NCBI GenBank assembly: GCA_029964075.1
Contig: CM057135.1
Span: 23,772,863 to 23,836,862 of the forward strand
DNA from: Patiria pectinifera
Taxonomy: Eukaryota > Echinodermata > Asteroidea > Valvatida > Asterinidae
Direction of reading: 5' to 3'
Length of the DNA stretch: 64,000 bases
In this document: piece after piece, positions 1-63,770 of the stretch
Position numbering within the stretch: the first letter of the stretch is position 1
How the letters are laid out: each line of letters opens with the position of its first letter
The notes under the pieces: model-generated
The model's input: the letters and a program-made list of their open reading frames with translations, nothing else
Databases searched by the model: none
Told to the model about the DNA's origin: nothing
Translations under genes and position numbers: made by a program

Positions 1-262
1 TTAATTTTTACATTCAACGGCAATATGTATTTAACTTTCAGGGTCGATGGTCACACCATTCTTCTCGAGAGTGAACTCAAGAAACAACTGCAAGTTCCGG
101 CTGATGTGACTCAACGATGCATCAATCTGCCTGGAAACTTGCAGTTGTTCCCTGTCTACTTGCAGGCGCTCACGCTCCAAAAGTAGACGCTCTCTCTCAA
201 GAAGAATGATGGACTCGTTGGAATTGAATCTTGAGCTCGATGATGGTGGTGCTGGTAGGGGT

Positions 263-1431
263 CAGTGTTGGAGCAAAGGCTTTGACCCTCAAGGCCAAGG
301 CCAAGGCTTTGACCCCCAAGGCCAAGGCCACGGCCAAGGCTTTGACCCTCAAGCCTCAAGGCCAAGGCTTAACCCTCAAGGCCAAGGCCAAGGCCAAGGC
401 CCTGTTTTATGAAATGACCACTGATATAGAACTAATTATAGTCACATGAGTGACACATCATCACGCAAGGGCGGATGCAGAACACAATTTTTTTTGGGGG
501 GGGGGGGGCAAAGTAATTTTGGTTCCCCCCAAAAAAGTGGGTCTGTGGTGCGATTTGAGGCAATTTCTGACCGTTAAATTTAACCGATGTTTTTTGAGGA
601 AAAGATGGTGGTGTACTCATTGCCTGCCTTTATTACGACGTCACATAAAAAAAATGGTTTCGTTTTTTTTTTTGGGGGGGGCATGGCCCCTTTAGACCCC
701 CCTGGATCCGCCCTTATCATCACGAATTGCTCGTTACAAAGAACAACATTTCTTTAATTGCAATCAACATGCTCGCATAGGCCTACACCGTTTTATGACT
801 GCACTGTATCTATTAAAGTATAGGTTCAGGTCTTCAATATGGTTTAACTTAACAAAATAATGATTTACTTCTATATTGACACACAATTCTCCCAAGTGTA
901 ACAAAAGGGGGATCCAAGAAATTGATTTGGGAAATTTTTATTTGCTGGCCCAACATGGTCAGAAATATCAGCATTATCTAAAACAGATACATGCAAATCT
1001 TTAGCACTTATCAGGGAGACATATACAACCAATCAGATCTATTCCATAGTTATATGCAATTAAAGTGATCGTTTCATTAGCCCCACAAATGTACGGAATA
1101 TTTTTGCAGCAAATCTACTACAATGGTAACAAAATGTGATGCTACAAAAGTGGAAGTGTGCCCAGCACACAAATCTATAGGGTGCTTCCCTCCTCCATGG
1201 TAATACGATTAAAATGGTAACAGCAAAATTTCGAACAGATTTATCTGGAAAATGCAAAAATCTATGGGCCTTGAAGAGCCTTGACTCAAAATTGCAAGGC
1301 CCTGAACCCTCAAGGCCTGGGCCAAGGCCAAGGCTTTTGCCCTCAAGCCTCGAGGCCAAGGCCAAGGCCCTAAAATCCAGCCTTAAGGCAGCCTTAAGGC
1401 CAAGGCCCAGCATCAAGGCACTACATCACTG
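263..1431 (-). mobile_element. hAT-type non-autonomous element inside Harbinger ORF1 (left arm)
   Basis: This is the counterpart of 49712-50873, with target duplications GTAGGGGT at 255-262 and 1432-1439. It carries the AAGGCC-type minisatellite at about 282-405 and again at 1270-1415. It is present in both arms, so the insertion is older than their divergence. The apparent repetitive reading frames over the minisatellite are not genes. Confidence 0.87.
466..715. mobile_element. MITE nested in the hAT element (left arm)
   Basis: Inverted ends are AAGGGCGGATGCAG and AAGGGCGGATCCAG, followed by poly-G/poly-C stretches. Direct repeats of 8-9 bp, ATCATCACG, lie at 457-465 and 716-724. TIR style and duplication length suggest another hAT-derived MITE. 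Its partner in the right arm is 50428-50671. Confidence 0.8.
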
Positions 1432-5961: not shown

Positions 5962-8900
5962 CTGCCACGTTTCGGCGCCCGTTTCGTATTTCTTGCGGGA
6001 GCTTTTGTCACCGGCGGTTGCAGCGTCCTGCTGGGGTACGTTTTATCTGCTGGCATTGCTGCTTTCTGTTGCTTTACAAGATGTTTATTAATTTTATTGC
6101 AAATCAGGCCCCCTTTAAAAGAAAACCCCTCCTTGAAAGGAATAAGGAATACAGCGCTATAACACCACAATAACGAACATTTGGCTATAACGAACATCCC
6201 CTTTGACTCTCCAAACATTAAATGTTATGATAACGCACAATAACAATAACGACCACTATTACGAATATGTTTTAATGGACCCCATAGTGTTCGTTTTGTC
6301 TTTGGCGTTGTACTGATGGGTGCATACCTATGTTCCCTAATATCTGTGTTCCCCAATACCTATGTTCCCCAATACCTATGTTCCCCAACCCTAACTCTAA
6401 ACCTCATCCTAAGGATTTTGGAAAACATCGATATTTGGGAACGTCGGGTAGACCCCGTACTGATATATGTATGTATCCTTTTCCCCTTTAAACTCTTTAT
6501 TGGGTTTTGAGAACGATTAACTGAAGAGATACATGTATATTTTGCTGGTCCCAGGGGGGCCGGCTTACACTCCCCTTCCAACCTGACTGTCCAAAAACAG
6601 ACTCACTCACTGACTATCACTTGTGAATTAAACCTTCCTAAGTCTAATTGTGGCCTAAACGTTTGAAATGTGCACGATTACCCCATATGCAAATAAAAGG
6701 GTTAAATCCGGCTTATCATAACACGTGTAGGCCACACTCATGCAACAAAAATTAGGTGAATATATTAAAGCCTGTCAGTGAATATATTAAAAGCCAAGTC
6801 ATTTTCTTCTTCTTGCAGCTTCGTTGGGGATATGCCTACATTGGCAACCTTTACAGGTTTCACTTTTGCCATACGGACCCTAGAAGGCCTTGGATCGTCC
6901 GCCTGCAATACTGCTATAGGTGCCATTCTCACCTACACCTTCAAGGATAAGGTCGGCGTTGCAACAGTAAGTACATATTTTACTAAGGGAATAAATGTGT
7001 GCTCGAGAGGTTTTTATCACTCTGTTTAAGACCGCTTAGAGTCTGGGTGCTGATATCCGGCTCGGGTAATTATCAGCACCCAGACTCTAAGCGGTCTTAA
7101 ACAGAGTGATAAATACCGACCGAGCACATATTTATTTCCATTCATAAATACCTTTTCGGTAAAAATATATCAAATAATTCGTTCAAAAAATCCCGATTTT
7201 GTTCAACAAGTTCACTTCATGCTTTTTGAAACACCCTTCTGGCAAAATAATGGAGTGTTCAGCTGGCGAGTAAGATGTAAACAGCCCTTATATGGAGATT
7301 GACGCGCGCGTAGCATGTTCTGCGCGATGTCGCGCAGAACGCACATGGGGCGTTGCGTTTTGAATTTAGAACTATACAATTCTGACTCGCTGGTAGTGTT
7401 GCGCATGCCTACGTGAGGATTGTGAACGCTTAACCAATGAAACGGTAAGAGGCACTGGAATTTTAGGAGTCCACATTTTATTGTGACACTGGAAAAGTGT
7501 TTAAGACCAGCTAGCCATGTCTTTATCATCCGTTTAAGACCGGCCACGTGACGGGCTCTCGACCAATAGGAATAGCTAAACTGTCTGAGGTATTTATGAA
7601 TAAGGAATAATAACACATTTAGACGGTATTTTCGAAAAACGGGGGTCCGGCTTCGGTTAACTTACTGAAAGAAGTTTGTCTATGTAGCCAAATGGAAACA
7701 TTCCAACGGCTTTGCTTCATCTCGTAGGGTTTGATTTGTTGCAAATTGTGGACCGATTATGAGCCGCAGTCCTCCAAAGACAAGGGGCCTAAAGTTCCAC
7801 AGTGTGACAGCTGAAGACGAAGCTGAGGTTTTAAAACTCTCAATTGTCTGTTGTTTTTGCTGCAGTGATCATGACCACTTATACCTTACACTTCACAGTA
7901 ATCATGCGTTTTCCTTTCTGTCTTCTCTCAATGTTTTGTACAACTTAGAGCTTGATGGAAACTGTCACCGGGACGTCGTTTACACTTGCACCAGTAATAG
8001 GCGGACTCTTATATCATGTAAGTATTATCAATCAAGTATTGTAACTGAACTCTAAAAAACAAAACAAGTACAATTGTATACATCTCGAGAGATTTTGATT
8101 AATCCCTTCCCATCCCCCACCCACCTCACCAACAAGCCATTCCAGCCCCGCCCCTTCTGCCCCCTCATGACCACATCCATGCCCACGCCCTGGTGACTTG
8201 TCAAACCCCATGTTGTGCATCAATGGAAGTGGCCATTCGTGAACCCATCTGTGAATTCATTCCTCTTTAATATTCACCACTGATAAAAGACGCATTTGTT
8301 TCTGAACAGGCCGGCGGTTTTAAGCTCCCGTTCCTTGTAAATGGCGGGTTTGTCTGGGCTTGTGTTGCTGTCAATTACTTCTTGATGCCGAAGATTGGTA
8401 AGATTGATTCAAAGAGAATTATTTTTTCTTCACAAACACAATGTCCTCATACGGATCATGTGACTATCTGGGGTTGTTGTGAGCAGTTTATTAGCCTGTC
8501 GCTACGCTCAGAACCACGCCCATGACCACACCCACGACTATGCCAATGACTACGCCCACGATCACGACCATGCCGATGACAACACCAACGACAACACCAA
8601 CTTAAACACGCCCGAAGCCTCCTGACCGTCACCGTTTTCACGAAGAGCCACATAATGTCAAAATTACCATTTTTTCGATTTCGATTTTTTCAATATTTTG
8701 CTTTAAAACAATGTTCTTACCCATAATGTAAGCAAAACATCATTGAATTCCAAGTTACATTAATGTTGCAAGGGGCAGAAATCTCGATAAATGCATTTTG
8801 CATTTGTCGAAGGCCACATACTTTTTGGCCCCTTGAACGTGTACAAAACCTATTGCACGGAAATACGTAAAAGTTATTCAACTGAGATTTCCGTTTTCAC

Positions 8901-11900
8901 GAAGAGCCACATAATTATCTTTGTTACATTTTCAGCTGCGCGCGTGTACTCACTATGGAATTCACGTTGAACAGAAATGGCCAATATGTCGGAAACCTAA
9001 ATTTTCGTTTTTACGAAGAGCAACATATCTTTACTAATAAAGTTTTACCAATTAACTGCTGTATTAGGTATTTAATTACTGGGTTGGCGTAAATTTTAAT
9101 TCAGCTCTCATGGAATCGTGTGATGGTTTCCTTGCTGCACAAAATTGTTGCAAAGTGGTCTTTTTTGCAGTTTTAAATATATGAGAAAATTGTTTTGCGA
9201 TTATCTCGAAAACGCTTTTTCTTCAAAATCAACATAATGTGGCTCTTCGTGAAAACGGTGACGATATGAACACGACGTAACCATGCCCACAACAACACAG
9301 AGACGAAAAGAAAACAATGTTGTGCAAGTGCAGGTGTCTCCACATTAATGACTCACCACATCGACACATATAGCAGCAATTACTGTTGAGTCAGGCTGCA
9401 CACGAAAGCAGTATAGAGCCTGAAAGTTGACCCCTGGTGGCACGCTTCCGGACCCTCGAATAGGATAATTAGCGCGTAAAAGTCGGAGTTTTGAAAATTA
9501 CTTTTGGACCATTGATTTCTTAAAAAGATCACCCTCGGAAAAGGCCTTTGTAAAATTGTTATTAGCATCTCATTGTGTGGAAACCGAAAATCACTTGACG
9601 TAAACGAGAAATATAGAACCAAAAATTGATCCCTCACTTTCGAAAATCCAACATACATGAGGACTATTGGAACTCGGAGCACTCGTACAAAGATAAACAT
9701 TTATGAAATAATTTTGTGGCGGTCATTGGGTTAAAACTGAAAATTAAATAGGAGACAAAGATGTCTTTCGGGACACACATTTTTTTTAATAAACTTGAAG
9801 AACTCCAATTGGCCTCATGGGGAAAAAAGCATATCCTCAATCCTGCAAATTGCTCCATTATTTCTTGAATATGGTCCGTGGAAGGGTGACCACAGCCTGA
9901 ATCCTGCAAAATCCTGCGGCAATGGCTGTCAATATGTTGAGGCTTGGCCAGTGACATCCTGGAGCAGTACAGAGGATTTCAAGCATAATCCAGGCTTATA
10001 TTTATGCATGGCTGATCAAAAACAAAACAAGGTACGGCCCAAGACACTGACAAAGTGCATACTACAAAATCAGTAACGCACTTTTGCCGTGTAACCTCAA
10101 TCATCCAAATTCCTCCACTTTGGCAAAGAGGATTTTGAAGGATTCAGGGTGACCGTTGATAAGAACTGTATTTAAGCAAGCCCAACGTAATCTATAATCC
10201 ATCGGTATAGGTAGGTAATCTCCGCGTCGCAATCATTTTCGTTCCAAGTAAAGGGTTGGGACAACAAACGTGATCGAAAAAGGAGACCTATAGGTACGAA
10301 ACTCCGGATATAAAAGGTTGTAAGTAAAATTCGTTTTTACTCATCTCCAGCTGATTTGTCATCATTTTGTTGTGGAATGCCAGGATAACATTTCAGCATG
10401 AACGTTTCTTGCGGTGATTACGGGTGGAAATCATGGTCAAAAATTATAGCAAGAGAAATGGCAACCCCATGTACACTGTCCATAGAAGGGTCGCGGAGGG
10501 TCCAGAAGCTTAAAGAGAAATGGCTTACTTTCAGGCTCTGTTATCGTTTTTTTTAAACAGAGTGTTATTGCTGCTCCAATTATGTTATCAAGACAAAATA
10601 ATTTCTTTGGAAAGGGAGCCAACATGAGGAAACCGGGCCTATGATTGAAGTTATGAAGCTGCCAGCTGTCTGGGTAGTCTTACTTGCCAGTTCTTTCAGC
10701 TTTCTTGCGTACTCTGCATTGGACCCAGTGCTGGCACCTCATCTTAAGCAGGTATGTCGCCATGGTAACACTGATCGCAGAACCAAATAATGACGTCTTA
10801 TGATTCACCAAAAAACACGCGGGGAGCATGCTTAAAGGCAGAGTACATCATTTGCAGCGATCCAAAATGTTACTGACAAAATTATTATTGTTGAAAAACA
10901 TATTTGGTTTAAAGATGCACTGGTACTTGTTAAATTATTCTGGCATGCCGTCATTTTGAAGAAAACAATAAAAGGACATTTCCAACGACGCGTCTAAAGA
11001 CGCATTTTTGGAAATGTCCGTTAGTAGTTCGTTTTTAATTCGGCAAAGCTGTGAATGAGTGCGTACAAGTGTTGACACGATTGCTATTATTTTGTCAGTT
11101 CAGAGCTTGACATCGCCTATAGCTGCAATCGACTGACTGAGAACGCGGCTTGCCCCGGACGCTGATTCGCGCGCAATTCAAAACATGACTCGGCAAGTTT
11201 TTTCGAGATCTTCGAATCGTTTTCTCGGAACCTACAGCATCCACTGAGCTGAAACTTTATTGGGTTAGTTGTTAAGCACCCTTCTTTAGATTTTGAGCAC
11301 TTTAGTTGCTTCAAACGAAAAAAAAGGCACAAAATGACAAATGATGTACTCTACCTTTCATGATCAAGTAAACTTGATTCCACGATCCTGATTGGTCGAT
11401 CCATGGCAACAAGCTGTGCTACATAATAACCGTGTAGCACGGCCACGGTCCATACTGCACTTCGCATATTGCACTATTAAGATGCACGCGCCGTTCCGTA
11501 CAAGAAGCATCTGTGATAGGCAACCTCGTCCCCTGAGGATGTCGAGCAGTACGCGCCCATCACTACCTGCTCTCTCACCCTGGTATTGGATCATTTGCCT
11601 GTGCAAGATTTTTGAACACGTATGCAAATAAGGAATAGTTTGGTGCCTGCATGTGCGTTACATTAGCGTTTGTTTTTGTATGCGGTGTCTGGGGTAAAAA
11701 CAGAGTCAATTTGTCGCAGCAAGAGCATGGCGTGAGTTACGAAACCACATTTGTTTTTCATTTAAACTGTTACGATCCTATCGAGACAATATTCCGTGTT
11801 CCACTCGCGCTCGCAAGATAACTAATAATGTAGTGCGTCTGTCGGCCGAGTGGTATGTGGGACACAGACGCACTACATTTTCCGTGTTCCACGAGCGCGA

Positions 11901-24100: not shown

Positions 24101-25330
24101 GCTCTGGAAGGAGTACTTCCGCTATTTTGAGTTATGCCATGAGGAGCAAAGCGCAAGCTGCGAAGTAGTTGTCCGCAAGCTTGAAATGGGATGCTCTACC
24201 GACGGTGGGCGACTCTGGCCAAAAGCCTACGTAAAATGCACTGGTCAAGTTGCTTGATTGTAGGTTTGGGTCAGCTCGATAGAGTGAGAATTGTCTCGCT
24301 CAGAAACCGGCGCGAAAAGGATAGCTAGAGTTAGGGCAGGCAATCCATGAGTTAACTGTAAGAGCGAATCTGAAATGCAAGAAGAAGCTCGAGAGAAGTT
24401 GGCAAAGAACCATTTCATCGATGCCGTTGACAGCCACTAAGTTAGAGAGGGCATCAATACAGGCTGCCCTGGAGACTGAGAATTTTGAGAAGGTCGAACA
24501 GCATTGATTGCTGGACCGAAAGCCCGCCAAATTGGCTAGGACTATAGACTCTGTAATAGAGAGTTAGGGACTTTAGAAGAAAGTCTCAATGAGCAGGTCA
24601 AGACATTGAAATCTGTGGCCGACTTGGTCAAGCCATTGTCCTACCAGAGCAAAGGCCCGGGCAAGGCAAGTGCGTGTTGTCCCCCAAGTCACACAAGCCT
24701 GGGAAAGCCAAACTTGCAACCTTTATGTGTTTCAAGTGTGGTGGGCATTTTCGCCCGGGAGTGTAAAGGAACTCCAAAGCAGGGACCCACGGGAACTCTG
24801 GGATGGCTGAGTGGTCAAAAGGGTCCAAAAGCAGACTCGGTGAAGCCAAAAATGGAAAAGCGAGGTAAAAACATAAAGATAGGCAACGAGTATTTAATCT
24901 GCCTGATCCAAGCCGTGGTCCTCGATATGGTTTGTTTTTGGATGAGTTGGTAAGGGCAACCAAGTTTCGATTCTGGATTCACACAGGGTCAACCGACACG
25001 TTAATAAGTAATGCGGTGCATTACCATATCCCAAAAGAGAAAAAACCCGTCTTGTAGACCATAGACGTCCAGGTAAAACAGGTGGACGGAAGCCAGTTAG
25101 CTGTGCAAGGCATGACTTTGGTTGAGGTGCAAGTTGGTAGGACCATGCACCAAGTGAAGGCAGTGTTCGCAGAAATCAAATACAGTGGATCCTTGGCATG
25201 GATTTTCTCGTGCCAACAGGTGAAAACATAGACTTCCAATCAAGGGAGTGGAGGCTCAACATTTGGTCAGGCGAGCCCTTTGTAGGACGCGTTGTAGTTT
25301 CCAAAACTACGGTAATCTAATCAGGTCATG
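21131..25330 (+). mobile_element. LTR retroelement remnant, gag and protease part (left arm)
   Basis: A fossil LTR element, broken. A candidate 5' LTR/leader is 21131-23168 (starts TGTGGCGG, ends CACTTACA, AATAAA near 22999), with boundaries unproven. A gag-like region starts about 23361 (MSERLQGLTGSSSAEAEV). A CCHC zinc knuckle lies near 24725-24770, and a protease-like region ends in ILGMDFL near 25190-25210. Style suggests a Gypsy-type element. No reverse transcriptase or second LTR is visible before the gap. With only one possible LTR no age can be given, except that it predates the divergence of the arms. Confidence 0.7.
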
Positions 25331-25547
25331 ATGCTGTGGACCCGGGAAAATTGCTCGGAGGGGCATATGAGTTTGTGAGGTCAAGTAAACGGGATTTGCC
25401 GACGCAAACCACAGCACGTGTCGTTTTCAGCCTAAAAAAACACCCATTCTGGACTTCTTTCGTCATAATCCAATACTCGCTCACTGTATAATTTAGTTGC
25501 TTGCAGAAAGAAAAAGTTCATCTTTCACTCTTCCAAGTCATATCATT

Positions 25548-32200: not shown

Positions 32201-32540
32201 CACGCCCAGTCATCCCCGCACAATCACTGTTTTAGCACTAGACTAGCTAAAACTCACTTCACTTTCCGCCACAATATGTGATTCTCAATCCAACTTTCAT
32301 GACACATCAGTAATTTTGTGCTAAGCTGTACGCCAATTAATTGAAAAATAACTTTGATGTTGACCTAAGTTTATGTAGCTTGAAATTTGCAATGTACATG
32401 TATAATGCAATTATTTATTTTGGCATTGCAATTATTTTAAAAGCTCAGCGGTCCAGTAAAAAAGCTAAGTAATTTTGTTTGAACTAAACCCGTTGCAAAC
32501 TTTGATTAAATTTATCATGGCGAATATGAACAAAAGGAAA

Positions 32541-35500: not shown

Positions 35501-38500
35501 TTAACGCTGAGGTGAAGCTTAATTAGGTGCATGTGAAGCAGGGGGAAGCTTGTGCAAAAGACAAGTTAAGTGGGCAAAACAACTCCAATCTTGGAGCTAG
35601 CGGGCAGAGATGTGTGCCTTAAAGACGTCCACAGACGGAGCTAGTGATGACGTCTACAAGATGGGCATTCTGAGAATCAGACTGCTGTAGGAATAAGAAA
35701 TTGTAGATGTCTATAGCTTAGAGATGAATGGGTTGTGAGAAGTTGGTATCTTGCCGGATGGTAGTTTCTTTGTCTGGTATCTGTCATCTTTGCTCATTGC
35801 AGTGATGTGGTGTGATATCTTGTACAGCATGGTTTTGATGGGTGCTTCCCGTCTGGATTGAAATGAAGCCCACTGCAGATTCAGCAGCATTGCACTCGCA
35901 CTTCAGTACGTTAGTCCTGCACAAATCTAGTTGCTCTATTCTGAATGGCTTCAACCTGATTGATAGTGTAGTTTGGTGTTGGGGATTTCAAACAGTGGTG
36001 CAATATTCTAGATGTAGCCTGACCAGAGAAATGTTAGCTTGGTATTTCAACCGTGGGTTGCAATGCTTCATATTCCTTTTAATATACCCTAGGACCCGGT
36101 TGGCTTTCAAGTTGATGTTTGATATGTGCGTCTTCCATGAGAACTTGGATGTGAAAGTTGTGGATGTGAAAGGTGTGGATGTTCGTTTAACTGACGTCCT
36201 ATTATGTCATCACCAAGGTCGTAGTTAAAGCCTACATAATTATGTTGTTTATGCGTTGGGAGACTTGCATCACATGGCAATGGTCTGAATTGAACTTCAT
36301 CTGCCACTTGGTTGTCCAGGAGCGCAGCGTATTAAGATCTTTCAGAGGAGCTCTGCAGTCATCTACGGTCTTTATACATGAAATCATCGGCGAATAGACG
36401 TGAAGACGATGTGACGGAGTCTGATATGTCGTTTATGAATGTTTGGAAGAGCAGTTACCCTATACATGTTTAGAACCGTGCCTTGGGGCACTTCAGAAAG
36501 AATATGACGCCGAGTCCGGTCAATTTACGACAAAACAGCTTTGACCTAGAAGTAATTGCAACATAATTTATTTTAACACTATCACACGAAGGAAAAATCA
36601 CGATTAACATTTTATCCAGGGAGTGGAAAATTTTACCCAGGGAGTGGAAAGGTTGTTTTACTTGCCTTTTCTTGACTGATTTTTTGTAACGCGTTCACAC
36701 GTAAACTGTCCTTTGCACTGTGACAATGTTTCATGATCAGCGTCAGTTGCCCGTCAGCATATCCGTTCACATCACACTGAAAACGTCGGGAAACACGACT
36801 GATCAAAACAGAAGGCTTTTTCCTGTCAACATAATGTATCGAAATCGTTCTGATTTTTACCTTGCCGGGAAGTTGCCGCGCCAAACTTTAGGGTATAGGG
36901 TTTTATTAAGAAGAATTTGGATTTTCTTTTACTACCTTAATTATTTTCCACCAATTTATTGAACAGTATTGCAGCTCAGTAAATCATTCGTTCCCGTGAG
37001 ATCCTTGCATCGGCATAGTTAAAAACGTGAACATGGGCTCTCAGTCCAATCTTTAAATTTGCTATATTTGTCGTTTTATGTGGGGTATAAATCCGAAATT
37101 CAGAATTCGTGGAGAAATTGAGTTTATTGGCACAACCTCATTTGTTGGAAATTTGTACAATCTAAAACAGCCGAAATGAAGATAAATATATTTGTATATC
37201 GAGCATAAGCCTAAATTTTATTGTACTTTTCTACACAATTCAGATTGCAGTAAATGTTTAAGTCTTGAGGCGAAATTCAATATGTTCACTTTGGCCTGCT
37301 CTGACAATAAGCAAATCGTCCAGTGCTTCCGCCAGCGACAGCCATTATTCCTGGCATACAACTTACAAGCGTTTCGTGTAGCTCATTACAAAAACACACT
37401 TGTCCACTGGTGTACATACATTCTGCCCGGTGATATTCTGATTAAGAAAGGAAGATATTCCCGTCAAAGGCCTAAATTTTAACCAAATCACATCACCATA
37501 CTGCTTTTGTGTATAATTAAGTCATATTATTTATATTAGACAGCAAAAATAAACTCCATATCACGTGAAATGAAATTTTTTCAAGTTACCGATGGTGCTT
37601 AGTCTGTCGCAGTCACCTATGGTCACAAATCCTATGCATTACCTGTTACAATGTAAATCAAAATTTAGGTTTTTTGCCCTTCACAGACATAATAGACACT
37701 GTATACTCAGTGTGTTACCTCCCGAGTAAAAGTTTGAAAAAAAAAAATAACTCGGGTAGGACTCGAACTCATCATCTCCTGCTTTCTAGTGCAGACGTCT
37801 TACCTTAATGCGGTACTATGTACATCAAATTAGAACCAACCTATACCGATCCTGAAGCTCGGTGGTCGAGTGGTAAGACGTCTGCATTGGAAAGCAAGAG
37901 GTCGTGGGATCGAGTCTCACCCGAGTATTTTCCCAACTTTAACCTCGGGAGGTAACACACTGAGAATACAGTGTTTATGCGTCGGTGAAGGGCAAACAAA
38001 CCTAATATTGATTTGCATCAACCCGGCACAAATTCCATCCTATGAATACTACGATGTAGGTAAATTTGAGGAAAGTCACCAGACGAAGTCTGAACTGAAG
38101 GGTGCCCTCCATAGTTCAGGTACGAACAATTCAAATTGTATTTTCAAAAAGAGCTTTAAAAACACCTTTCCACTCCATAAAAAAATAGAGTTTTCACATG
38201 TTCTTGTTCTTCATTCGAACCCTGATAAGAAGAGCACTGTTAATACTACATCCTGCTTATAACAAGCAAAATTTGAGGTCCCAAGTCTTTGTTTTCCAAT
38301 ACTGTTAATACAAGGTACCTGTTACAACAAGGTAATTTGTAAAGTCACAAGGACCTTGTTATAAAGGTGTTCGACTGTATTGTTCTAGTTCACATGTTCT
38401 GTGTATTTATTTAAAGTTGGTTGACAATTAAATTGTTTCTATTGCAATTTCTTCCAAATCAAAATTGACCGGACTCTCTGAGGCTTCGCCTTCCAGCACA

Positions 38501-41500
38501 ACTCGTTGAGATATTTTGGTAAAGAAGTTGTTGAGCCTCTTCAAGAGAGGCCTCAAACTCCAGAGTGTTGTAATTTAAGTAGGAGCCTTTGGTGGGGTAC
38601 TCGATCAAAAGCCTTGGAGAAGTCAAAGGTAATGGAGTTCGTTTACTTTCTGTCATCCCGAGCTTTTGCAAAATCATTGGCTACGATGATAAGCTGTAAT
38701 TCACAAGAGCGGCCATGGCGGAAGCCATGTTGACTTTCGATTAAGACCTCACGAGTATCATAATGACCCATCATATGGCTGAAGATGATATACTCAAGGA
38801 TTTTACATGCATTGTTGTGAGCGATACTGGTTGGTAATTGGTACACTGCAACCACCTTTCTGATATATGGGCGCTACGTTTGCAATCCTCCAGTCATGGG
38901 GAATTTCAGCAGTATCCAATGACTGCTGACAGATGAATGCTATATAAAAGTTGCCTTGTGTTATCTAGGAGATGTAGACAGCTGCACAATGCAAGATTGG
39001 AGGCAAGGAGTGAATATGTTGCCCACAAAAATGAGAAAAGGAGAGAAAGCTGCACGAACACGTTTGTCAAGCTTTACATGCACCAAACAGACTGTCCTCA
39101 CTAGCCGACACCTCGTGTAAGTTACAAGTGACAATGAGTGAGTCAGTCAGTCAGGTTCAAAGATGACTTTTGTCTGGGACCAGCAAAAATAAAACTCAAC
39201 TTTGTTACAGTCACTCACTGGACTGTACATTTTTTTTTAATCAAATGAAGCCGTTAGGAAAAAACTAAACTTTACTCACGGGGGAATATTGAAGAACGGA
39301 GAGGGCCCAATTAGGATGAAACCTATTGCAGAAGCAAACACTCCCATAACCATTAGGATTCTTGAGATCCCCTATATACGTAAAGGTAGACAATGAAAGA
39401 AAGCTCTTTTGTTTTGTTTTTGTTTTTGTTTTTAAATTACTAGAACGTTCAAAACGTAACCCGTTAAGGTTTCAGCTGAAAGATATTACACTTTAAGATA
39501 AGATAACAGTGATAAACCATTCACAACCTTTTATCCACGAAACACGATTTCGTCCATGACACTCTTGGCTTAAAAAAAAATACCAAAAAAAATCCAGTCA
39601 CTTGACTGATAGTTGGACATTATAAAGCAAGACGGAAACGTTTCCAGAAATGTTTAGTGCCAGTATAATCGTTTTTTTTGGTAATTTTGTGATAATAATT
39701 CGGTAGGTTACTTTTTTTGGAAAGTGCAATTTATCATAATGCCTCTTAGTTGACTTTTTTTACAGATAAATATATATTTAAAACAGAACGATGACAAAGA
39801 TATTTATGATTTGTCACAGACGTAAATTGTATGTAAATCACCTTTTTATCGACAATGTAGCCCCAGAGGGTAGCAGTCACAGCGTACGCAGCGCCCCAAC
39901 CTGCAAACACCAGACTAATGCCAGTGACACTATAACCAAGCTACGGAGAACAATAATACCAAAAAGTAAACTGGGCACATAGCAAAGCACAGGTCTCTTG
40001 TTCGCGTTCAAAATATGATTCCTTTAGAGCATCCCATGTTCGGGCCGTTAGGCACATTGAGCTCCCAATGCTTGCAATAAAGCCCCGCCCCAAGATGTTC
40101 TAAACCAATAATTAATCACAAGTACGAGAAAAAGACGTTAAAAATGATCATCATTTTGTAAGTTGATGAAGGCTAGAGGGCTACACATGTACCCTGTTCT
40201 TATTCTGAAGCATATAGCACTTCAAACTGAATGCATTGGGTTTTTTAGCAACGCGCACCAGCATTTTAGAACAGAAAATAAATACGAGGAATAAATGGAC
40301 GAATTGCTAATTGGTCTCTTTTTTTTCGTTTTCACGAACAGCCACTTCTCTTAATTGATTAATTCTGCAAAACTAGTCACCTGTTTTTCTTAAAGTTTGC
40401 TTTATTTAAGAAGATTATGATCTCTTCTTTCCTCTGATACCTAAATCTTGCATATTTTATGCATCTTTAGGTTTCAAATTGTCAAATGAAAAAAGAACCA
40501 ACTTTAAACTCAATTCTCTGGAATGTTTTTTCAGACATTGAATTACTAAATTCGCCTCTTCGTGAAAACTGTCACGATTTGTTAGCGCGTGGGGCAAAAG
40601 TTGCGTTACGCGCACCTTCACTTTTGTTGGTTTGTATGCAAAAGTGTATTTGTATGTCCAGAAAAGTATTTTTTTAACAGTATTAAGTTATTTCTCCAAC
40701 AAAATTCAAAATGGGTTATCAAGCAGGATATTTCTTTCGACGTTTTGTCCATATTTCCCTCGTATTTTATTTTCCGTTTCAAACTGCTGGTGCGCGTTGC
40801 TAATAAAAAAACACACCTTGCATCCAGTTGTTTTAAAGAAGCACTGCGTCCTGAAATCCCCGAAAATGTTATGTTTTGGACTGTTTACTTATCCTATTTC
40901 AAACATCTGTTTGAAAGAAAACCATACTAATAATAATTATTTTATAATAATATTGACTTCTAAATATAGCGCTTATGTCCCTCACAAAATGATGTACTCT
41001 ACCAACAATATGGCTCTATGGCTGTGCACGATCTCTTCAGCGGTTATCCTAAAACACCAACCTCGTCCCCAGTGCTTACCTTTTTTTCCAATCACGTTTT
41101 CAATAGTAAGCCCTGGATAGGAAACTGTCTTCCTGTATCCTGATTCGATACCGCAATTGGATAGTTATGGATTGTTATCGTGTACTTGGTGTTGTTATTC
41201 ACAACGTGCAGTACGTGTTTGCGCGATCATTTCCTTTCCAATATTGTTTATATTAATAAGAAATGTAATACTCTATGTTATCTTCAAGCAAACTTGAATC
41301 GTCGATCCTGATTGGTCGATCCATGGCAACAAGCCGTGCTACATATAACCATACCGCACGGCCACGGTCCATACCGCACTCCGCGTATTGCGCTATTCCA
41401 AGATGCGAGCGACATTCCAGCTGCATACGCTAAGCTGCTGAATGTCCGTGTAAAGCGTGCTAGTTCCAACTGTACTGCGCGTCAAGTTTGCTTGAAGATA

Positions 41501-44500
41501 AATTCGTTATCGCGCTCGCGCTCGTGGAACACGGAAAATGTAGTGCGTCTGTGTCCCACATACCACTCGGCCGACAGACGCACTACATTATTAGTTATCT
41601 TCAAGCACACTTGAATCCTCGATCCTGATTGGTCGATCCATGGCAACAAGCCGTGCTACATATAACCATACCGCACGGCCACGGTCCATACCGCACTCTG
41701 CGTATTGCGCTATTCTAAGCCTACGTGACGCGATTAGTGCTGCACAATTCACTGTGAATTCAAAAGTTGCGCGTAGGTTACACAGCATGCGTGTTCCAAC
41801 TTTACTGTGCGTCAAGTTTGCTTGAAGATAAATTCGTTATCGCGCTCGCGCTCGTGGAACACGGAAAATGTAGTGCGTCTGTGTCCCATATACCACTCGG
41901 CCTTCGGCCTCGTGGTATGTGGGACACAGACGCACTACATTATTCCGTGTTCCACTCGCGCTCGCAAGATAACTAATATTGATTTTGAAGAAAAAGCGTT
42001 TTCGAGATAATCGCAAAACAATTTTCTCATATTTTTAAAACTGCAAAAAAGACCACTTTGCAACAATTTTGTGCAGCAAGGAAACCATCACACGATTCTA
42101 TGAGAGCTGAATTAAAATTTACGCCAACCCAGTAATTATATACCTAATACAGCAGTTAATTGGTAAAACTTTATTAGTAACGATATGTTGCTCTTCGTAA
42201 AAACGAAAATTTAGGTTTCCGACATTTTGGCCATTTCTGTTCAACGTGAATTTCCATAGGCGCGCGTGAGTACGCGCGCGCAGCTGAAAATGTAACAAAG
42301 ATAATAATGTGGCTCTTCGTGAAAACGGAAATCTCAGTTGAATTACTTTTACGTATTTCCGTGCAATAGGTTTTGTACACGTTCAAGGGGCCAAAATGTA
42401 TGTGGCTCTTCGACAAAACGCAAAATGCATTTATCGAGATTTCTGACCCTTGCAACATTAATGTAACTTAGAAATCAATGATGTTTTGCTTACATTATGG
42501 TAAAGAACATTGTTTTAAAGCAAAATATTGAAAAAAAATCGAAATCGAAAAAATGGTAATTTTGACATATGTGGCTCTTCTTGAAAACGGTGACGGTCAG
42601 GAGGCTTCGGGCGTGTTTAAGTTGGTGTTGTCGTGGGTGTTGTCAGCGGCATGGTCGTGATCGTGGGCGTAGTCATTGGCATAGTCGTGGGTGTGGTCAT
42701 GGGCGTGGTTCTGAGCGTAGCGACAGGCTAATAAACTGCTCACAACAACCCCTGATAGTCACATGATCCGTATGAGGACATTGTGTTTGTGAAGAAAAAT
42801 AATTCTTTTTGAATCAATCTTACCAATCTTCGGCATCAAGAAGTAATTGACAGCAACACAAGCCCAGACAAACCCGCCATTTACAAGGAACGGGAGCTTA
42901 AAACCGCCGGCCTGTTCAGAAACAAATGCGTCTTTTATCAGTGGTGAATATTAAAGAGGAATGAATTCACAGATGGGTTCACGAATGGCCACTTCCATTG
43001 ATGCACAACATGGGGTTTGACAAGTCATCAGGGCGTGGGCATGGATGTGGTCATGAGGGGGCAGAAGGGGCGGGGCTGGGATGGCTTGTTGGTGAGGTGG
43101 GTGGGGGATGGGAAGGGATTAATCAAAATCTCTCGAGATGTATACAATTGTACTTGTTTTGTTTTTTAGAGTTGAGTTACAATACTTGATTGATAATACT
43201 TACATGATATAAGAGTCCGCCTATTACTGGTGCAAGTGTAAACGACGTCCCGGTGACAGTTTCCATCAAGCTCTAAGTTGTGCAAAACATTGAGAGAAGA
43301 CAAAGGAAAACGCATGCTTACTGTAAGGTAAGTGGTCATGATCACTGCAGCAAAAACAACAGACAATTGAGAGTTTTAAAACCTCGGCTTCGTCTTCAGC
43401 TGTCACACTGTGGAACTTAAGGTCCCTTGTCTTTGGAGGACTGCGGCTCACAATCGGTCCACAATTTGCAACGAATCAAACCCTACGAGATGAAGCAAAG
43501 CCGTTGGAATGTTTCCATTTGGCTAGATAGACAAACTTCTTTCAGTAAGTTAGCCGAAGCCGGACCCCCGTTTTTCGAAAACACCGTCTAAATGTGTTAT
43601 TATTCCTTATTCATAAATACCTCAGACAGTTTAGCTATTCCTATTGGTCGAGAGCCCGTCACGTGGCCGGTCTTAAACGGATGATAAAGACATGGCTAGC
43701 TGGTCTTAAACACTTTTCCAGTGTCACAATAAAATGTGGACTCCTAAAAATCCAGTGCCTCTTACCGTTTCATTGGTTAAGCGTTCACAATCCTCACGTA
43801 GGCATGCGCAACACTACCAGCGAGTCAGAATTGTATAGTTCTAAATTCAAAACGCAACGCCCCATGTGCGTTCTGCGCGACATCGCGCAGAACATGCTAC
43901 GCGCGCGTCAATCTCCATATAAGGGTGTTTGCATCTTACTCGCCAGCTGAACACTCCATTATTTTGACAGAGGGGTTTTTCAAAAAGTATTAAGTGAACT
44001 TGTTGAACAAAATCGGGATTTTTTGAATGAATTATTTGATTTTTTTTGTGCGAAAAGGTATTAATGAATAGACTCTAAGCGGTCTGAAACAGAGTGATTA
44101 AAACCCTCTCGAGCACACATTTATTCCCTTAGTAAAATATGTACTTACTGTTGCAACGCCGACCTTATCCTTGAAGGTGTAGGTGAGAATGGCACCTATA
44201 GCAGTATTGCAGGCGGACGATCCAAGGCCTTCTAGGGTCCGTATGGCAAAAGTGAAACCTGTAAAGGTTGCCAATGTAGGCATATCCACAACGAAGCTGC
44301 AAGAAGAAGAAAATGACTTGGCTTTTAATATATTCACTGACAGGCTTTAATATATTCACCTAATTTTTGTTGCATGAGTGTGGCCTACACGTGTTATGAT
44401 AAGCCGGATTTAACCCTTTCATTTGCATATGGGGTAATCGTGCACATTTCAAACGTTTAGGCCACAATTAGACTTAAGAAGGTTTAATTCACAAGTGATA

Positions 44501-47500
44501 GTCAGTGAGTGAGTCTGTTTTTGGACAGTCAGGTTGGAAGGGGAGTGTAAGCCGGCCCCCCTGGGACCAGCAAAATATACATGTATCTCTTCAGGTAATC
44601 GTTCTCAAAACCCAATAAAGAGTTCAAAGGGGAAAAGGATACATACATGTATCAGTACGGGGTCTACCCGACGTTCCCAAATACCGATGTTTTCCAAAAT
44701 CCTTAGGATGAGGTTTAGAGTTAGGGTTGGGGAACATAGGTATTGGGGAACATAGGTATTGGGGAACACAGGTATTAGGGAACATAGGTATGCACCCATC
44801 AGTACAACGCCAAAGACAAAACGAACACTATGGGGTCCATTAAAACATATTCGTAATAGTGGTCGTTATTGTTATTGTGCGTTATCATAACATTTAATGT
44901 TTGGAGAGTCAAAGGGGATGTTCGTTATAGCCAAATGTTCGTTATTGTGGTGTTATAGCGCTGTATTCCTTATTCCTTTCAAGGAGGGGTTTTCTTTTAA
45001 AGGGGGCCTGATTTGCAATAGAATTAATAAACATCTTGTAAAGCAACAGAAAGCAGCAATGCCAGCAGATAAAACGTACCCCAGCAGGACGCTGCAACCG
45101 CCGGTGACAAAAGCTCCCGCAAGAAATACGAAACGGGCGCCGAAACGTGGCAGCTGGGGAAGAAAACAAATGAATGTAAACAATATCTTTATCTTTATGT
45201 CACATTATCCACTAAACCAGCGACCACTGCATAGGTGTGCAACGGCACGTAAACCTCTGTGCCACACTTTATGAACTACGGCATGAACTTGATCACGGTT
45301 GTGGATACCAATTCACGTATACGTGAATTGGTTTATTAGATGCGGGATAGCTGCTCAACAAATCATCAAGTCGGTCGGTCGGTCGGTCGGTCGGTCGGTC
45401 GGTCGGTCGGTCGGTCGGTCGGTCGGTCGGTCGGTCGGTCGGTCGGTCGGTCCGTCCGTCCGTCAGTCAGTCAGTCACAAACGTTGACATGCCGACCTAG
45501 CAAGTCTCACGCCTCAGAGTCGATGACACGCTCACAAATTGCTGAAGCAAATTTCCGAGAATCTCTACAAGACGGTTTATCCTACAATCTGGGAACCTCC
45601 CCCGCCCTCGGTTCTACGGCTTACCTAAGATACATTCCCCATTCGCCCCATCGTATCTAGGATAGGTTCAATGTGCCACTGCTTAGCAGCTACAGTTCCA
45701 GTGTCATATCCACCTTGGTTGGGAACATGGAGCATCACAACCGAAACTCCCAGGATTTCGCTGGCCAAGTTAGGGACATGAAGGTGCTTCGTACAGATTG
45801 TTAAGTGTCATGTGATGTGAGTGCCATGCCCAGTGGATAAAGCCATCCCAATCATCACAGAATGACTCGAGAACGCTCCCACCCTACATGACCGCACGGG
45901 ATTTGTCCCCGAAACCCATTGTCCAACTCTTGAAATTATTTCATGTCAGCAGAGAGGGCCGACATTGGATCCTCTATGTCACTAGCTGGGCCCAATTTTA
46001 CGGCGCTGCTAAGCACAAAAAAAATTTGCTTAACACAAAAAAGTCTGGCTTATAGCAGCAGGTTATCAGTCAAAACTCCATGTGATTTTCATGCTAGGCA
46101 AACAACAGCTAAATTTTAATCACGAGCAATATGCATCACGTATAGTTTTGGCTGGTAACCTGCTTTTATAAGCCAGACTTTTTGTGCTAAGCAATTTGTT
46201 GTGCATAGCAGCGCCGTGAAATTGGCCCCAGTCGTAGCTAGCCAACAAGTCAGCGATATCCGCGACCATACGCGAGCAACGTACAGAACACGCCATTCAC
46301 TGGACTGGTACACGCATCAGTGACCAGCACCCGATTTCACCAAACTCTTCGTAACTTACGATGCATCGCAGCGCTGCGACGCGTCGTATCTCTACGATGC
46401 GTCGCAGCTGCGACGCGTCCTGCGATCCATTTCACTAAACACGTCGTAAGTTCGACGCGTCGTAGGTGTATTTATAGCACAACTCGGTGACTGTTTTATG
46501 TCTTTAGTCAGCGTACAGTAAATAGTCGTCTGATATTCAACAAAAAGTCGTCGGATCTCAGCTCGAAATTTGTTAAAACGTTAAACAAAATGGCGGCCGT
46601 GCGATGCAATTGTGAAGAAAAACAAGCTCTCATTGGACTGTATAGCTACTTTGAAATTTCAACTCTAATATTCCGGTCTAATTCATAATTCAATGAATTT
46701 TCTATTTACAACTTTACACACATTGCCTCGGTATTATAATCTCGTTAATGTAATGTTTGTGGCATAAAACTGGCTTAGAAATGACTCTTCTTATTTTGCG
46801 ATGACCACTAGACACGTCGTAACTTGCGACGTGTTTTAAGCCGTTGTCAAGGAACTTGCGACGCGTTCAACACATCGCAACTTTCGTGAAATGGAAGATA
46901 CCTACGCGTCGCGAGTTGTGACGTGTTACACGTCGTAACTCGAGTTGCGACGCGTCGCAGCGCTTCGTGAAATCGGGTGCAGCACCCGATTTCACTAAAC
47001 TCTTCTTAACTTAAGACGCGTCGCACGGTTTACGATGCGTCGCAGCCCTGCGACACGTCGTAGCTGCGACGTGTTCTGCAAACAATTTCACTAAACGCGT
47101 CGTAAGGGCGATGCGTTGCATTTTCAGTTTTACTGACATACATTTCTTGGACGAGCCTAATTCTTTTCTCACCTACAACAAATTTATGTTTGAAAATGTT
47201 TTAGTCACAAAATAGTCGTTGGAATCAACACGTCTGCAAAACGCGGGAAAAACTTGAAATGATTGGAAGAAATTTGCTGTCCAAAAGTGTCATCTTTTGA
47301 TGTCGTCTGCTCTCATCTGCCTGCAATTTTCAAGGTAAGTTTAGTGCATTGATTGTTATGGGAGTTTATTTGGATCGGCGTAGTGATTCTGTCGCGCGAA
47401 AACTGAACGAAATCAGCAGGAACTGAGAGTCGGAGTCATTAGACATTACGAACGGAGCACAATGGAAAATGTGGAAAAGAAACGGCCTAAAAACTGGACC

Positions 47501-50500
47501 CATGAAGAAGTCGCTGTTCTGTGCCAGTATGTCATGTAATGTGCACGAGCACTTGAATGAGCTCTTCGGCAGCAGTTGCAAAGGCAAAAAATCAAAGGCA
47601 AACGTGGAAAAAGTATAAAAGATCCACTATTGGAAAGAGGCAGGGAAAGTACTTGTTGAGAATGGAGGCATTCCCAGAGATTACCAGAAAATACGAAAGA
47701 AATGGCAGGATATGACCAGGAAAGCAAGGACGTATCACCGAGACATGAACAGAACAGGTAAATATTATACTTTATAAAATAGCCTATTAATTAGGCCTAA
47801 CATTAGGCCTATTATTATTAAATATTTTATTATTTTTATGTTATTTCTAGTTAGGCTATAGGACCTAGAACTAGTTCAACATGAAAAGTCAGATAAGCCT
47901 ATAGGAAAGAATGTGCAAATCTGACACTGCTTTTTTTCATCAATCATCTCAACGACAACTGAAAAAAAGGTCCTACTAAATTCGTCAACAAGCATCAACA
48001 GTACTTGTCAACAAGCATCAACACATTTTGTATAGCCTATGCTTTCGAAAATTAAAAGTAGCTTTATAATGCATGGTAGAAAAAGCAATAAAGAACATCT
48101 TCTGCAAATCTATTCAAGTTGAAATTATTTAAAAACTTGTTTTTTTGAACGCGAAATGTACGACAAGTGTGTCGAGTGTTGCCCCCCATCTTGTTAGGAT
48201 GGCGCTGTACACTTCACGCATGCGTAGTATGGCTCTGTACACTTCAGGCATGTGTAGTATGGCTAGCTTCACGTAAACAAAATGGCAGCCAACACAAACT
48301 CGACAGCTTGTCGTACGTTTCGCGTTGAAAAAAAAAAACTTTTGAAATAGTTTTTACTTTAAATTATATGCTGCAGGTGTTCTTTGTTGCCATTTGTACT
48401 ATAAAGCTGTTTTAGATTTTCCAAAACTTCTAAGTTCTACAAAATTTGTTGACGCTGGATTGACGACCGTTGAAGTTTGTTGAAGCCAGTTGACACTTAT
48501 TGACGCTTGCTGACGCATTTTAGTAGAACCGACTGAAAATGCTTATGACAGGCATGAGATTCTTTCTGTTGAAACAGGGATTAATTGTTTTTGTTTTGCT
48601 TTGTTTTGTTTGTTTTTTTGGCCAAAATTTTTGCACTTTAATTTATTTTTAGCCAGTTATGGCAAAAAAAAAAAAGTCTCCGGTTTCTGGTATGGAGCTT
48701 GCCCAAAAAGTGGTGCGGTGACGCGGCTTTTTTTTTTTTTTTACCTGATTTTTTTGCTTCAAATGTGTGCTGATGACTGCAAATGGTGCCCGACTAAACT
48801 TAGTGCAAATATATGGGAGTCCAGAGAGGTCACATAAAGCTTATTCTCGACCATAATCTAATCTAAAAACACGTTAAAATTGTGCAGCAGCAGGATTCCA
48901 GTCAAACCAGTGAGTTTGGCGGTTTTGAGACATCATCTTTCATTGAAAAAAAAACTTTTTCATTTTGCCGACGCGCATGGCTACAGCGACGCGCGCGCAT
49001 ACCAGAAACCGGAGACTTTTTTTTTGGCCTATGGGTATTATTATTTTTTTTTTGCTTGATTGCACACATTTTCCCCCTTTTGGAACAAATTTCATGTATT
49101 TTTTTTCATTGCAATTCATTCTCATGCCTGTAATGAGTATGAACCTAGAGTCCTAGACCACTTTCTAAAGTTGTTGTTGTTTTTATTCAGGAGGAGGTGA
49201 GAAGCCAGCCACAAACAAGACAGTCGATTTTGTTTTGGAGGCATTGCTGCCCATTGCCAAGGATGGCATCCTTAATCAGGAGGAAGGAGAAACAGACCCA
49301 CTCCAACCAGAAGTTGATTTCCTGATGGACATAGTCGCTGAAGGTAAGAATGCTGACAGAATACTAGTAGCGCTACAATTTTTCAAAGAATATACAAGAC
49401 TAACAGTTCAGAGAACTTGTTTGTATTTCTTGAAAGAAATACTTCATATTTTTGATAATTTAATATTTTTGTAAATATAATTTGTTTCACAAAATAACTA
49501 TTTGCTTTCAATCACTATAATATAAATCATTAATACATGCAATACATATGATTGGACATTAATATGATAAATCTTAAATCTTAATAAATCTGTTTTCCTG
49601 TATATCTTATTTTTTAAGCCGTCACAACTGCTGAGATTAGAATAGAAGAGGAGTTCGAGGATCAGGATGAGTCTTTGGCAGCAGCTAACTCCGGCAAAGA
49701 TCAACCCCTACCAGTGATGTAGTGCCTTGATGCTGGGCCTTGGCCTTAAGGCTGCCTTAAGGCTGGATTTTAGGGCCTTGGCCTTGGCCTCGAGGCTTGA
49801 GGGCAAAAGCCTTGGCCTTGGCCCAGGCCTTGAGGGTTCAGGGCCTTGCAATTTTGAGTCAAGGCTCTTCAAGGCCCATAGATTTTTGAATTTTCCAGAT
49901 AAATCTGTTCGAAATTTTGCTGTTACCATTTTAATCGTATTACCATGGAGGAGGGAAGCACCCTATAGATTTGTGTGCTGGGCACACTTCCACTTTTGTA
50001 GCATCACATTTTGTTACCATTGTAGTAGATTTGCTGCAAAAATATTCCGTACATTTGTGGGGCTAATGAAATGATCACTTTAATTGCATATAACTATGGA
50101 ATAGATCTGATTGGTTGTATATGTCTCCCTGATAAGTGCTAAAGATTTGCATGTATCTGTTTTAGATAATGCTGATATTTCTGACCATGTTGGGCCAGCA
50201 AATAAAAATTTCCCAAATCAATTTCTTGGATCCCCCTTTTGTTACACTTGGGAGAATTGTGTGTCAATATAGAAGTAAATCATTATTTTGTTAAGTTAAA
50301 CCATATTGAAGACCTGAACCTATACTTTAATAGATACAGTGCAGTCATAAAACGGTGTAGGCCTATGCGAGCATGTTGATTGCAATTAAAGAAATGTTGT
50401 TCTTCGTAACGAGCAATTCGTGATGATAAGGGCGGATCCAGGGGGGTCTAAAGGGGCCATGCCCCCCCCCCAAAAAAAAACCCGAAACCATTTTTTTTAT

Positions 50501-53500
50501 GTGACGTCGTAATAAAGGCAGGCAGTGAGTACACCACCATCTTTTCCTCAAAAAACATCGGTTAAATTTAACGGTCAGAAATTGCCTCAAATCGCACCAC
50601 AGACCCACTTTTTTGGGGGGAACCAAAATTACTTTGCCCCCCCCCAAAATTGTGTTCTGCATCCGCCCTTGCGTGATGATGTGTCACTCATGTGACTATA
50701 ATTAGTTCTATATCAGTGGTCATTTCATAAAACAGGGCCTTGGCCTTGGCCTTGGCCTTGAGGGTTAAGCCTTGGCCTTGAGGCTTGAGGGTCAAAGCCT
50801 TGGCCGTGGCCTTGGCCTTGGGGTCAAAGCCTTGGCCTTGGCCTTGAGGGTCAAAGCCTTTGCTCCAACACTGACCCCTACCAGCACCACCATCATCGAG
50901 CTCAAGATTCAATTCCAACGAGTCCATCATTCTTCTTGAGAGAGAGCGTCTACTTTTGGAGCGTGAGCGCCTGCAAGTAGACAGGGAACAACTGCAAGTT
51001 TCCAGGCAGATTGATGCATCGTTGAGTCACATCAGCCGGAACTTGCAGTTGTTTCTTGAGTTCACTCTCGAGAAGAATGGTGTGACCATCGACCCTGAAA
51101 GTTAAATACATATTGCCGTTGAATGTAAAAATTAATTAGAGTTAAAATAAAACACAATTTATAATTTCTTTCTATTTTTTACAGGCATCTATAACCCGCA
51201 TGACAATATGCACACATACATTTTAAATTTGAATGCGTTTTGCTTGAAAATGTATTTAAAACTTCAATACTTAAATACTGCCGTTGCCGTTGAATGTAAA
51301 AATTAATTAGAGTTAAAATAAAACACAAATTATAATTTCTTTCTATTTTTTACAGGCATCTATAACCCGCATGACAATATGCACACATATATTTTAAATT
51401 TGAATGAGTTTTGCTTGAAAATGTATTTAAAACTTCAATACTTACTTACTAAATAAAACTTAATTCCAGATGGGTAGTTAAATCCCGGTGCAAGCGTACT
51501 TAAGTGCTTAACCAAATTCTTTAATTAAATGTTTTATATGTGCACTATATTTTCCCTTTTAGACTCACTTGATGTTTTAGACTCACTTTATATCAGATTG
51601 TTTGTTTTACACTTGACTTTTTACATGACATTTTAATGTTTAATTTCATTTACTGTCATAATAAACCAGAAATATAATGAGAACCAAGAGTGAAACTGGT
51701 CTAATGTGATTTGAGGTTTAAACATAAATATTCCGATTTTGAGGTCTCTAAACTAAGCGACTAAAGGGCTGACTCTGCTAAGCATCTTTTCATTTTTTCC
51801 CCGTAAACTTTGCTGTTACATTTGTTCATGTTCATACGACTTTTTGCCACATTGGCCTAAGTTATCTTGTGTGCGCCAGCGGAACACGGAAAAAGTATAT
51901 AGGCATCAGTTATCCCGCAAGCACGAGTGGAATACGGAAAATGTAGTGCGTCTTTATCCCGCGTACCACAAGGCCTTTGTATGTAGAACACAGACGCACT
52001 GCATTTTCTGTGTGTTCCACGAGTGCGAGCGCAATAACAAAAAAATCTTCAAGTAAACTTGACACACACTTAATAGGGTGCAGACCAGTAAATCGGTCGG
52101 AAATTGCCTATACGCCGGCCAAATCACGATTTGCATGCCCTCAAAATCTTCAGTATTTGAGCATGCTGTGGGCCATGAACTTGAGGGTTTGTAAAACATA
52201 TGGGTGGAAGCCGTGCACAGGACTGGGAGCTTGCAGTTCTGTGTAATTTGGATGTAATTTGGACCCTAAAAGCGCTCTATTTTGCGATGGAGTGTAGGCA
52301 TCGTTTTTCAAAATGGCGATGGGCTTCAGGACTATTTTTAGGGGTGATCATCTTCAGATGGAAATTTCTCCTAAAAGTTGACCCCCCGAAAATTGACAAT
52401 AAAATGAAAGATGATGAAATAAGCTTTAATTTGATGTGTGTCTCGAACACCTTGGAGAGTTGTGAGTATTTTTCCCGAATTTTTGAAGTGGGAGCATTTA
52501 CCATTGGGGTCTATGGAAGTTTATTTACTGGTCTGCTACCTATAGGGCGCATAGTTCCTATGTGTATATACATGTACATGTAGTACTTTTAGCCGTGCAC
52601 AGAAAGATTGCAAAAATAGAAAGCTCCACATGACTCACTCTCGGCCAATCAAGACACAGAATCTGTGGGTGAGGTGTTACAATATACAAATATTGAGTGG
52701 CTCAGCATGGAATGGGAGGAATATTATCGCAAGGCAACTGGAAAAGTCTGGATTTTACCGAGCGATAATATTCCTCTCATTTCACAATTTAAAGCCACTC
52801 AATATAGATCCTTGTCATTTGATATATTTGAACTTAAATTTCAATACAAAACTGGAGGAAAATGTATTTCCCTCTTCCAAACCACCCCTTCAAGAAAATG
52901 TTTGAACCCAACGCTGTAGCACAGGCACTTTGGAACAGTACGCGCTACGCGTAACGCTGAACGCGTAAACCAGCACATGTTTCAGTTCAAACATGGTTCC
53001 AATGAAAACCACAGCTGCGTGATAAATATTTATTTATAAAATCATAGTGTTTTTGCCACGGATTCGACCAATCAGGATCACGGATACAAGTCATCTTCAA
53101 GCAAACTGGTGGGGGGGGGTGAGAATTGGAGGTGCTTTCCAGTCGTGTGGCAGCAGATAACAATATTTTATACACATTTAACCTTTTTTATTTTGTATTT
53201 AGAAATATCTGTTGATGAGCATGATGCAATGGAGTTGCCCATCATGGATATGACCTTCATACAGCAAGTCATCATCCTCATCAGCATTGTCATCGTCTCC
53301 GTCTTCCAGATCCGGCTGGCCAAACTCCTTGGAGAGGTTGAAGAGCACGCAGCAGGCCCTGATGATGACACATGCCCTCTGAGGAGCCACTCTCATGCCA
53401 AGAGCCAGACAAGGAAATTTCCTCTTGAGTTGGCCGAACGTCTGCTCAATGACCACTCGCGACTTTCTGTGACTCCTGTAATTTGAGGGACTGCATATTG

Positions 53501-60965: not shown

Positions 60966-63770
<2,805 letters not shown>

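Follow-up and report, generated by a model that had tools for sequence, protein, structure and literature searches.

Among the systems described so far, those closest to the locus reported here are false heterotype duplications, in which diverged copies lie on one scaffold with an assembly gap between them (PMC9516828, PMC8081667), and whose marks are half read depth, gaps between the copies, discordant read pairs and one-copy k-mers (PMC9516828). The locus in question is a large inverted repeat in a 64,000-nucleotide stretch of the genome of the sea star Patiria pectinifera (the window; C7:23772863-23836862, C7 being the scaffold), taken from an assembly that was searched as 613.5 Mb in 1,020 records. 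Like the false duplications, it consists of diverged copies on one scaffold with an assembly gap between them, and comparison of the sequences indicates that it is very probably a false (heterotype, haplotypic) duplication, that is, an assembly error. It is thus most likely not a real biological feature. What sets it apart from the cases in those two papers is its inverted arrangement, which is not described in the accessible text of either, the word 'inverted' occurring in neither.

Undercollapsed heterozygosity was also met with in AaegL5, the Hi-C assembly of Aedes aegypti, in which alternative haplotypes were later merged, whereas here they appear to be still present; the AaegL5 paper also carries a statement on 500-bp gaps (PMC6421076). 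Homologous blocks laid out as inverted copies on one scaffold, as in the window, are known from the 2013 assembly of Adineta vaga and from Folsomia candida (PMC5916493, PMC5490193, PMC7953838). In the former, 23 palindromes were recorded among 25 same-scaffold homologous blocks, whereas A. ricciae had none; many of the breaks in collinearity extend across scaffold gaps (PMC5916493). Artificial palindromes can arise through erroneous scaffolding (PMC7953838). Whereas the Adineta and Folsomia palindromes have been debated as signatures of asexuality, no such claim is made here. The palindromes of the human Y chromosome share with our locus their large inverted arms, which in their case undergo concerted evolution via gene conversion (PMC5490193, PMC7953838). 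Unlike them, the arms in the window form a mosaic of 0-10.7% divergence per kilobase, carry insertions private to one copy and have a neighbouring duplication whose edge falls at a contig end.

Inverted copies on either side of a placeholder gap

Self-BLAST of the window returned a collinear minus-strand chain leading from the pairing of position 1 with 51135 to that of 25536 with 26491, on the two sides of the sole run of N in the window (25991-26490, exactly 500 N). Chance pairing is excluded, because a single block of the chain alone measures 12.4 kb at 98.4%. As in false haplotypic duplications, the two copies thus lie on one scaffold with a placeholder gap, here of 500 N, between them. 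Contig B, to the right of the gap, is homologous from its first base (26491 pairs with 25536), confirming the original prediction, made from the letters of the window, that the right contig starts inside homologous sequence. Contig A, in contrast, extends 454 bp (25537-25990) beyond its last homologous base, and this tail had neither a right-arm partner nor any other BLAST match within the window. The gap does not, therefore, lie exactly at the symmetry centre as had been proposed, and the left arm ends at 25536 rather than at 25547. The gap-proximal ends of both contigs fall in a dispersed repeat (24000-25363), which matches dozens of places in the genome, for the most part at 70-83% identity, and is a plausible cause of both contigs breaking there.

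The reverse-complement arms of what had been described as a 25-kb inverted duplication are real, but 25 kb is a size set by the edge of the window and the homology is far longer; neither position 1 nor position 51136 ends an arm, position 1 being the window edge and 51135 only its partner. In an extended comparison, with 100 kb added on each side of the window, 38 collinear inverted blocks reached the left edge of the extended DNA with 2,559 mismatches in 93,076 aligned columns (2.75%), and no second gap was present between -100 kb and +164 kb of the extended sequence (negative positions lie to the left of the window). Searching the whole assembly with C7:23926863-23936862 carried the pairing further left, to C7:23648174 opposite C7:23936862. 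The left arm is accordingly at least 150,225 bp long and the right arm at least 137,510 bp, and the segment 51136-64000 is also right-arm sequence, broken by insertions that the left copy is without. A 171-bp tandem duplication, 98% alike, occupies 51113-51444; this place looks like the end of the right arm because the left edge of the window falls opposite to it, and the homology runs on past.

Inverted collinear arms about a centre are also what a genuine large palindrome would present, with at least 138 kb per arm, an unassembled centre and partial homogenisation of the arms by gene conversion. The centre holds the placeholder gap alone, which neither shows nor excludes the spacer of such a palindrome. 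The next gap found rightward of the window lies at C7:24005309-24005808, so that contig B measures at most 205,956 bp, and less if a further gap lies in C7:23936863-23972000 or C7:23974501-24000000. No partner was found among the matches listed for C7:24000001-24005308, a repeat-rich segment queried whole and by its last 804 bp and last 464 bp, nor for C7:23972001-23974500, swamped by a 550-bp repeat, and then its first 1,310 bp, again repeat-filled. Such far-B queries without a listed partner would suit a true outer edge of a palindrome there.

Two proposals on contig B were not borne out. One placed it wholly inside contig A; the pairing of B with A was followed to at least C7:23936862, and queries at C7:23972001 and C7:24004845 had no partner among the matches listed, which were filled with repeats. 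The other consisted of guessed partner positions for B in contig A (L034, and L035 at C7:23576001-23586000), which showed no pairing with C7:24000001-24005308; L035 brought to light the 23.47-Mb duplication described below. At the start of C7:24000001-24005308, 2.3 kb or more (C7:24000001-24002278) belong to an element that was probably mobile until recently, copies of it being carried by five other records at 99-100% identity.

If the repeat is a false duplication, the sequenced animal would be a heterozygous diploid, two alleles of which the assembler would have output as contigs A and B and left unmerged. The scaffolder would then have joined mutually allelic contig ends, writing A, 500 N and the reverse-complemented B; joining allelic ends always yields an inverted duplication. 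This join may have been driven by Hi-C contacts between the allelic ends, the number of which would be raised by read pairs of ambiguous mapping. We infer the use of Hi-C from the size of the scaffold (44.85 Mb for C7) and from the 500-N gaps, which both 3D-DNA and SALSA write. Read depth on the arms would be expected to be half. The observations fit an end-to-end scaffolding of unmerged haplotype contigs, which is a known class of error.

Recurrence along the scaffold and an edge at a contig start

Eight places on C7 beyond the window each served as a query against the whole assembly, 40 candidates being scored for each query; sampling for recurrence covered this scaffold alone. Five of the eight had a long inverted partner on C7, ranked first or close to first among the matches (Table 1), and three were without one among the matches listed. 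These negatives, the control included, carry less weight than the positives, their lists being filled with repeats; the control, C7:25000001-25006000, had repeat matches alone among the matches listed and no long partner, and is a soft negative. Four of the five positives outline two further inverted duplications, with centres near 23.47 and 24.28 Mb, and the match of C7:24402500-24406000 falls where the two earlier pairs of the 24.28-Mb duplication predict it. With the window's own, at least three inverted duplications are thus found within 1.2 Mb.

The second gap, like that of the window, is 500 N long, and the contig that follows it is homologous from its 19th base, in inverted pairing with C7:24564273, the partner of this contig start running gap-free to at least C7:24566000. 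An edge of the 24.28-Mb duplication hence lies no more than 18 bases from where a contig begins, which would be a coincidence for a real palindrome and is expected for a haplotype contig. A genuine palindrome in the window would leave this outer edge of the neighbouring duplication to chance and would need at least three such structures within 1.2 Mb of scaffold, making it, in our judgement, very unlikely. The edge likewise has no explanation if the repeat reflects a real structural variant of one haplotype (a heterozygous inverted duplication or inversion), with correct contigs and a scaffold that mixes haplotypes. This variant would be compatible with the patchy divergence described below and with the far-B queries without a partner among the matches listed, but it requires that several variants arose independently next to one another, and we hold it to be more doubtful than the palindrome.

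Each of the two neighbouring duplications holds sequence confined to one copy. In that near 23.47 Mb, about 17.4 kb (C7:23356878-23374300) is present in one copy only; the flanking matches overlap by 5 bp, as in a target duplication, and its size is near that of the Maverick-like element described below. In that near 24.28 Mb, a dispersed repeat about 847 bp long (2791-3637 of C7:24402500-24406000) is absent from the other copy, where the empty site shows a 4-bp overlap (C7:24158053-24158056); dozens of other genomic copies of this repeat were listed.

Divergence of the arms and insertions private to one copy

Seven clean blocks with 22,758 aligned columns held 296 substitutions (1.30%), of which 142 were transitions and 154 transversions, and 59 gaps; a forced end-to-end alignment that included the unequal 9.2-11.8 kb stretch gave 450 in 23,156 (1.94%). 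Substitution ranged from 0.8-1.0% in the two long blocks through 2.6% in the block at 7.1-9.2 kb to 3.8-5.9% over the final 1.4 kb before the gap, which comprises four blocks and lies mostly within the dispersed repeat. Over 73 one-kilobase bins of the larger blocks, the median was 1.1% substitutions (interquartile range 0.3-2.9, range 0-10.7%), and counts per 500 bp in the window were overdispersed (variance-to-mean ratio 6.1). The arms thus differ patchily, as recombining alleles do; a mosaic would be expected of recombining haplotypes whereas a duplication of a single age would be flatter, although this is not decisive alone. Heterozygosity values of 1.6% for a female zebra finch (PMC8081667) and of 3.63% for Botryllus (PMC12448946) have been given elsewhere.

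The divergence bears on two of the alternatives. The near-identity that gene conversion would confer on the arms of a genuine palindrome was not found, although kilobases near 100% identity could be conversion tracts, and a palindrome without conversion is still compatible with the counts. Chimeric long reads that fold back on themselves could also be assembled into a false palindrome, and false chimeric PacBio palindromes of read length, 7-17 kb, are mentioned in the literature (PMC9516828). Copies read from the same molecule should, however, be almost identical, whereas the arms here differ by 1.3% in the window and by 2.75% over the longer chain; their insertions differ, the arms far exceed such reads and a scaffold gap sits at the join. 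Of all the explanations considered, we find this fold-back artefact the least credible.

Transposon-sized indels, as had been noted, were seen on both sides of the gap, and insertions with target duplications and with empty sites opposite were found in both directions (Table 1). The 670-bp insertion at 28583-29252, which resembles a miniature inverted-repeat transposable element (MITE), faces a clean empty site at left position 24139. The family of the shorter MITE-like insertion (26714-27064) has another copy that is common to both arms (2156-2470 and 48669-48984). The insertion at 63921-71698, which resembles a long terminal repeat (LTR) retrotransposon, has two 769-bp end repeats that are 99.87% identical and a 5-bp target duplication, and its empty site occupies -28204 to -28200 of the left copy. 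The several insertions in the arms that the other copy is without speak against a genuine palindrome. Transposons private to one copy, together with a mosaic of conversion tracts, could be accommodated by a series of at least three real neighbouring palindromes with arms of about 0.1-0.3 Mb within 1.2 Mb, a reading that we consider very unlikely.

The scaffolding of two haplotypes head to head, put forward in the original prediction, is supported by the length of the homology beyond the window, by its recurrence, by the edge at a contig end and by the patchy divergence. Several points weigh against it. Identity at the neighbouring loci spans about 80 to 99%, and no gap was present in C7:24276301-24286300, the centre region of the 24.28-Mb duplication. 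Queries taken from the 33 kb that precede the second gap were without an allelic partner among the matches listed, which were filled with repeats. Mosaic divergence would also be expected of a palindrome in which gene conversion was partial. Large palindromes have, moreover, been reported in animals, those of Botryllus having been judged real by their authors, who had considered depth, structural errors and BUSCO genes present in duplicate (PMC12448946).

A 16.8-kb Maverick/Polinton-like element is present in the left copy only, at -27858 to -11038 (C7:23745004-23761824), with terminal inverted repeats of about 240 bp that are 95% alike and an apparent 6-bp target duplication; the right copy carries an empty site at 63574-63581. 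Its frames include an integrase core (PF00665) and a Pox_A32-type match (PF04665). A frame of 1,319 amino acids, which may be the DNA polymerase, matches Endonuclease_7 below the cut-off, and two further frames of the element were without a Pfam match.

Table 1. Features of the window and inverted pairs elsewhere on C7. Plain coordinates are window positions; those marked C7 are scaffold positions.
Feature	Coordinates	Strand	Remarks
Left copy, in part (contig A)	1..25536	+	Self-BLAST; extends left to at least C7:23648174
Tail of contig A, 454 bp	25537..25990	+	Unpaired with right arm
Placeholder gap between contigs A and B	25991..26490 (C7:23798853-23799352)	.	Exactly 500 N
Right copy, in part (contig B); orientation opposite to left arm	26491..64000	-	Homology with left copy
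Dispersed repeat holding the gap-proximal ends of both contigs	24000..25363	+	Genome matches
MITE-like insertion, right copy only	28583..29252	-	25-bp perfect terminal inverted repeats; target duplication ATGA
MITE-like insertion of about 350 bp, right copy only	26714..27064	-	GGCC...GGCC ends
278 bp, right copy only	27546..27823	-	
706 bp, right copy only	53499..54204	-	
95 bp, left copy only	7045..7139	+	Mostly an inverted local duplicate of 6987-7055
Repeat-rich length difference	9236..11814 (left) vs 41602-41975 (right)	+	2,579 bp vs 374 bp
LTR-retrotransposon-like insertion, 7.8 kb, right copy only	63921-71698		Leaves the window at 64000
Two open frames	59463..60522	-	First MFS-like, second without Pfam match
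Queried place with partner	C7:23926863-23936862		Partner belongs to the window's own duplication
Queried place with partner	C7:24100001-24106000		Inverted partner C7:24456928-24462574; 24.28-Mb duplication
Queried place with partner	C7:24005809-24010808		Inverted partner C7:24559191-24564273; 24.28-Mb duplication
Queried place with partner	C7:24402500-24406000		Inverted partner C7:24156076-24158343; 24.28-Mb duplication
Queried place with partner	C7:23576001-23586000		Inverted partner C7:23352089-23379563; 23.47-Mb duplication

Open frames and other content of the window

As a probable assembly error, the repeat is of low biological interest and matters as quality control for users of the assembly. 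Genes in the duplicated stretches, here open frames of MFS-like and transposase type, would enter gene counts twice, their order near the gaps would be wrong, and surveys of the scaffold for palindromes or inversions would return false positives. Each false palindrome would, at the same time, be a ready-made comparison of two alleles, with clean empty sites for transposon insertions.

Twenty stop-free frames of the window, picked by eye from the listed frames, were scanned against Pfam; MFS_1 was matched below its curated cut-off and DDE_Tnp_4 above it, the other frames having matches below the cut-off or none. For the MFS-like frame, whose Pfam match is the one below the cut-off, the nearest PDB entry, by a weak resemblance, is SLC18B1; the left copy has both this frame and the one listed with it, beyond the window edge at -7630 to -8678. 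With Rfam, each arm had one tRNA match, and ARAGORN found no tRNA in the window. A gene-centred reading, in which a palindrome would hold a selected gene, was dropped after the Pfam scan of these twenty frames and the Rfam and ARAGORN scans.

The DDE_Tnp_4 match above the cut-off is a transposase fragment at 53202-53603 on the minus strand, and the 706 bp private to the right copy begin inside this frame. Four arrays of the tetranucleotide TCTG lie at 60999-63139, among direct repeats of 0.3-1.7 kb, and are largely common to both copies.

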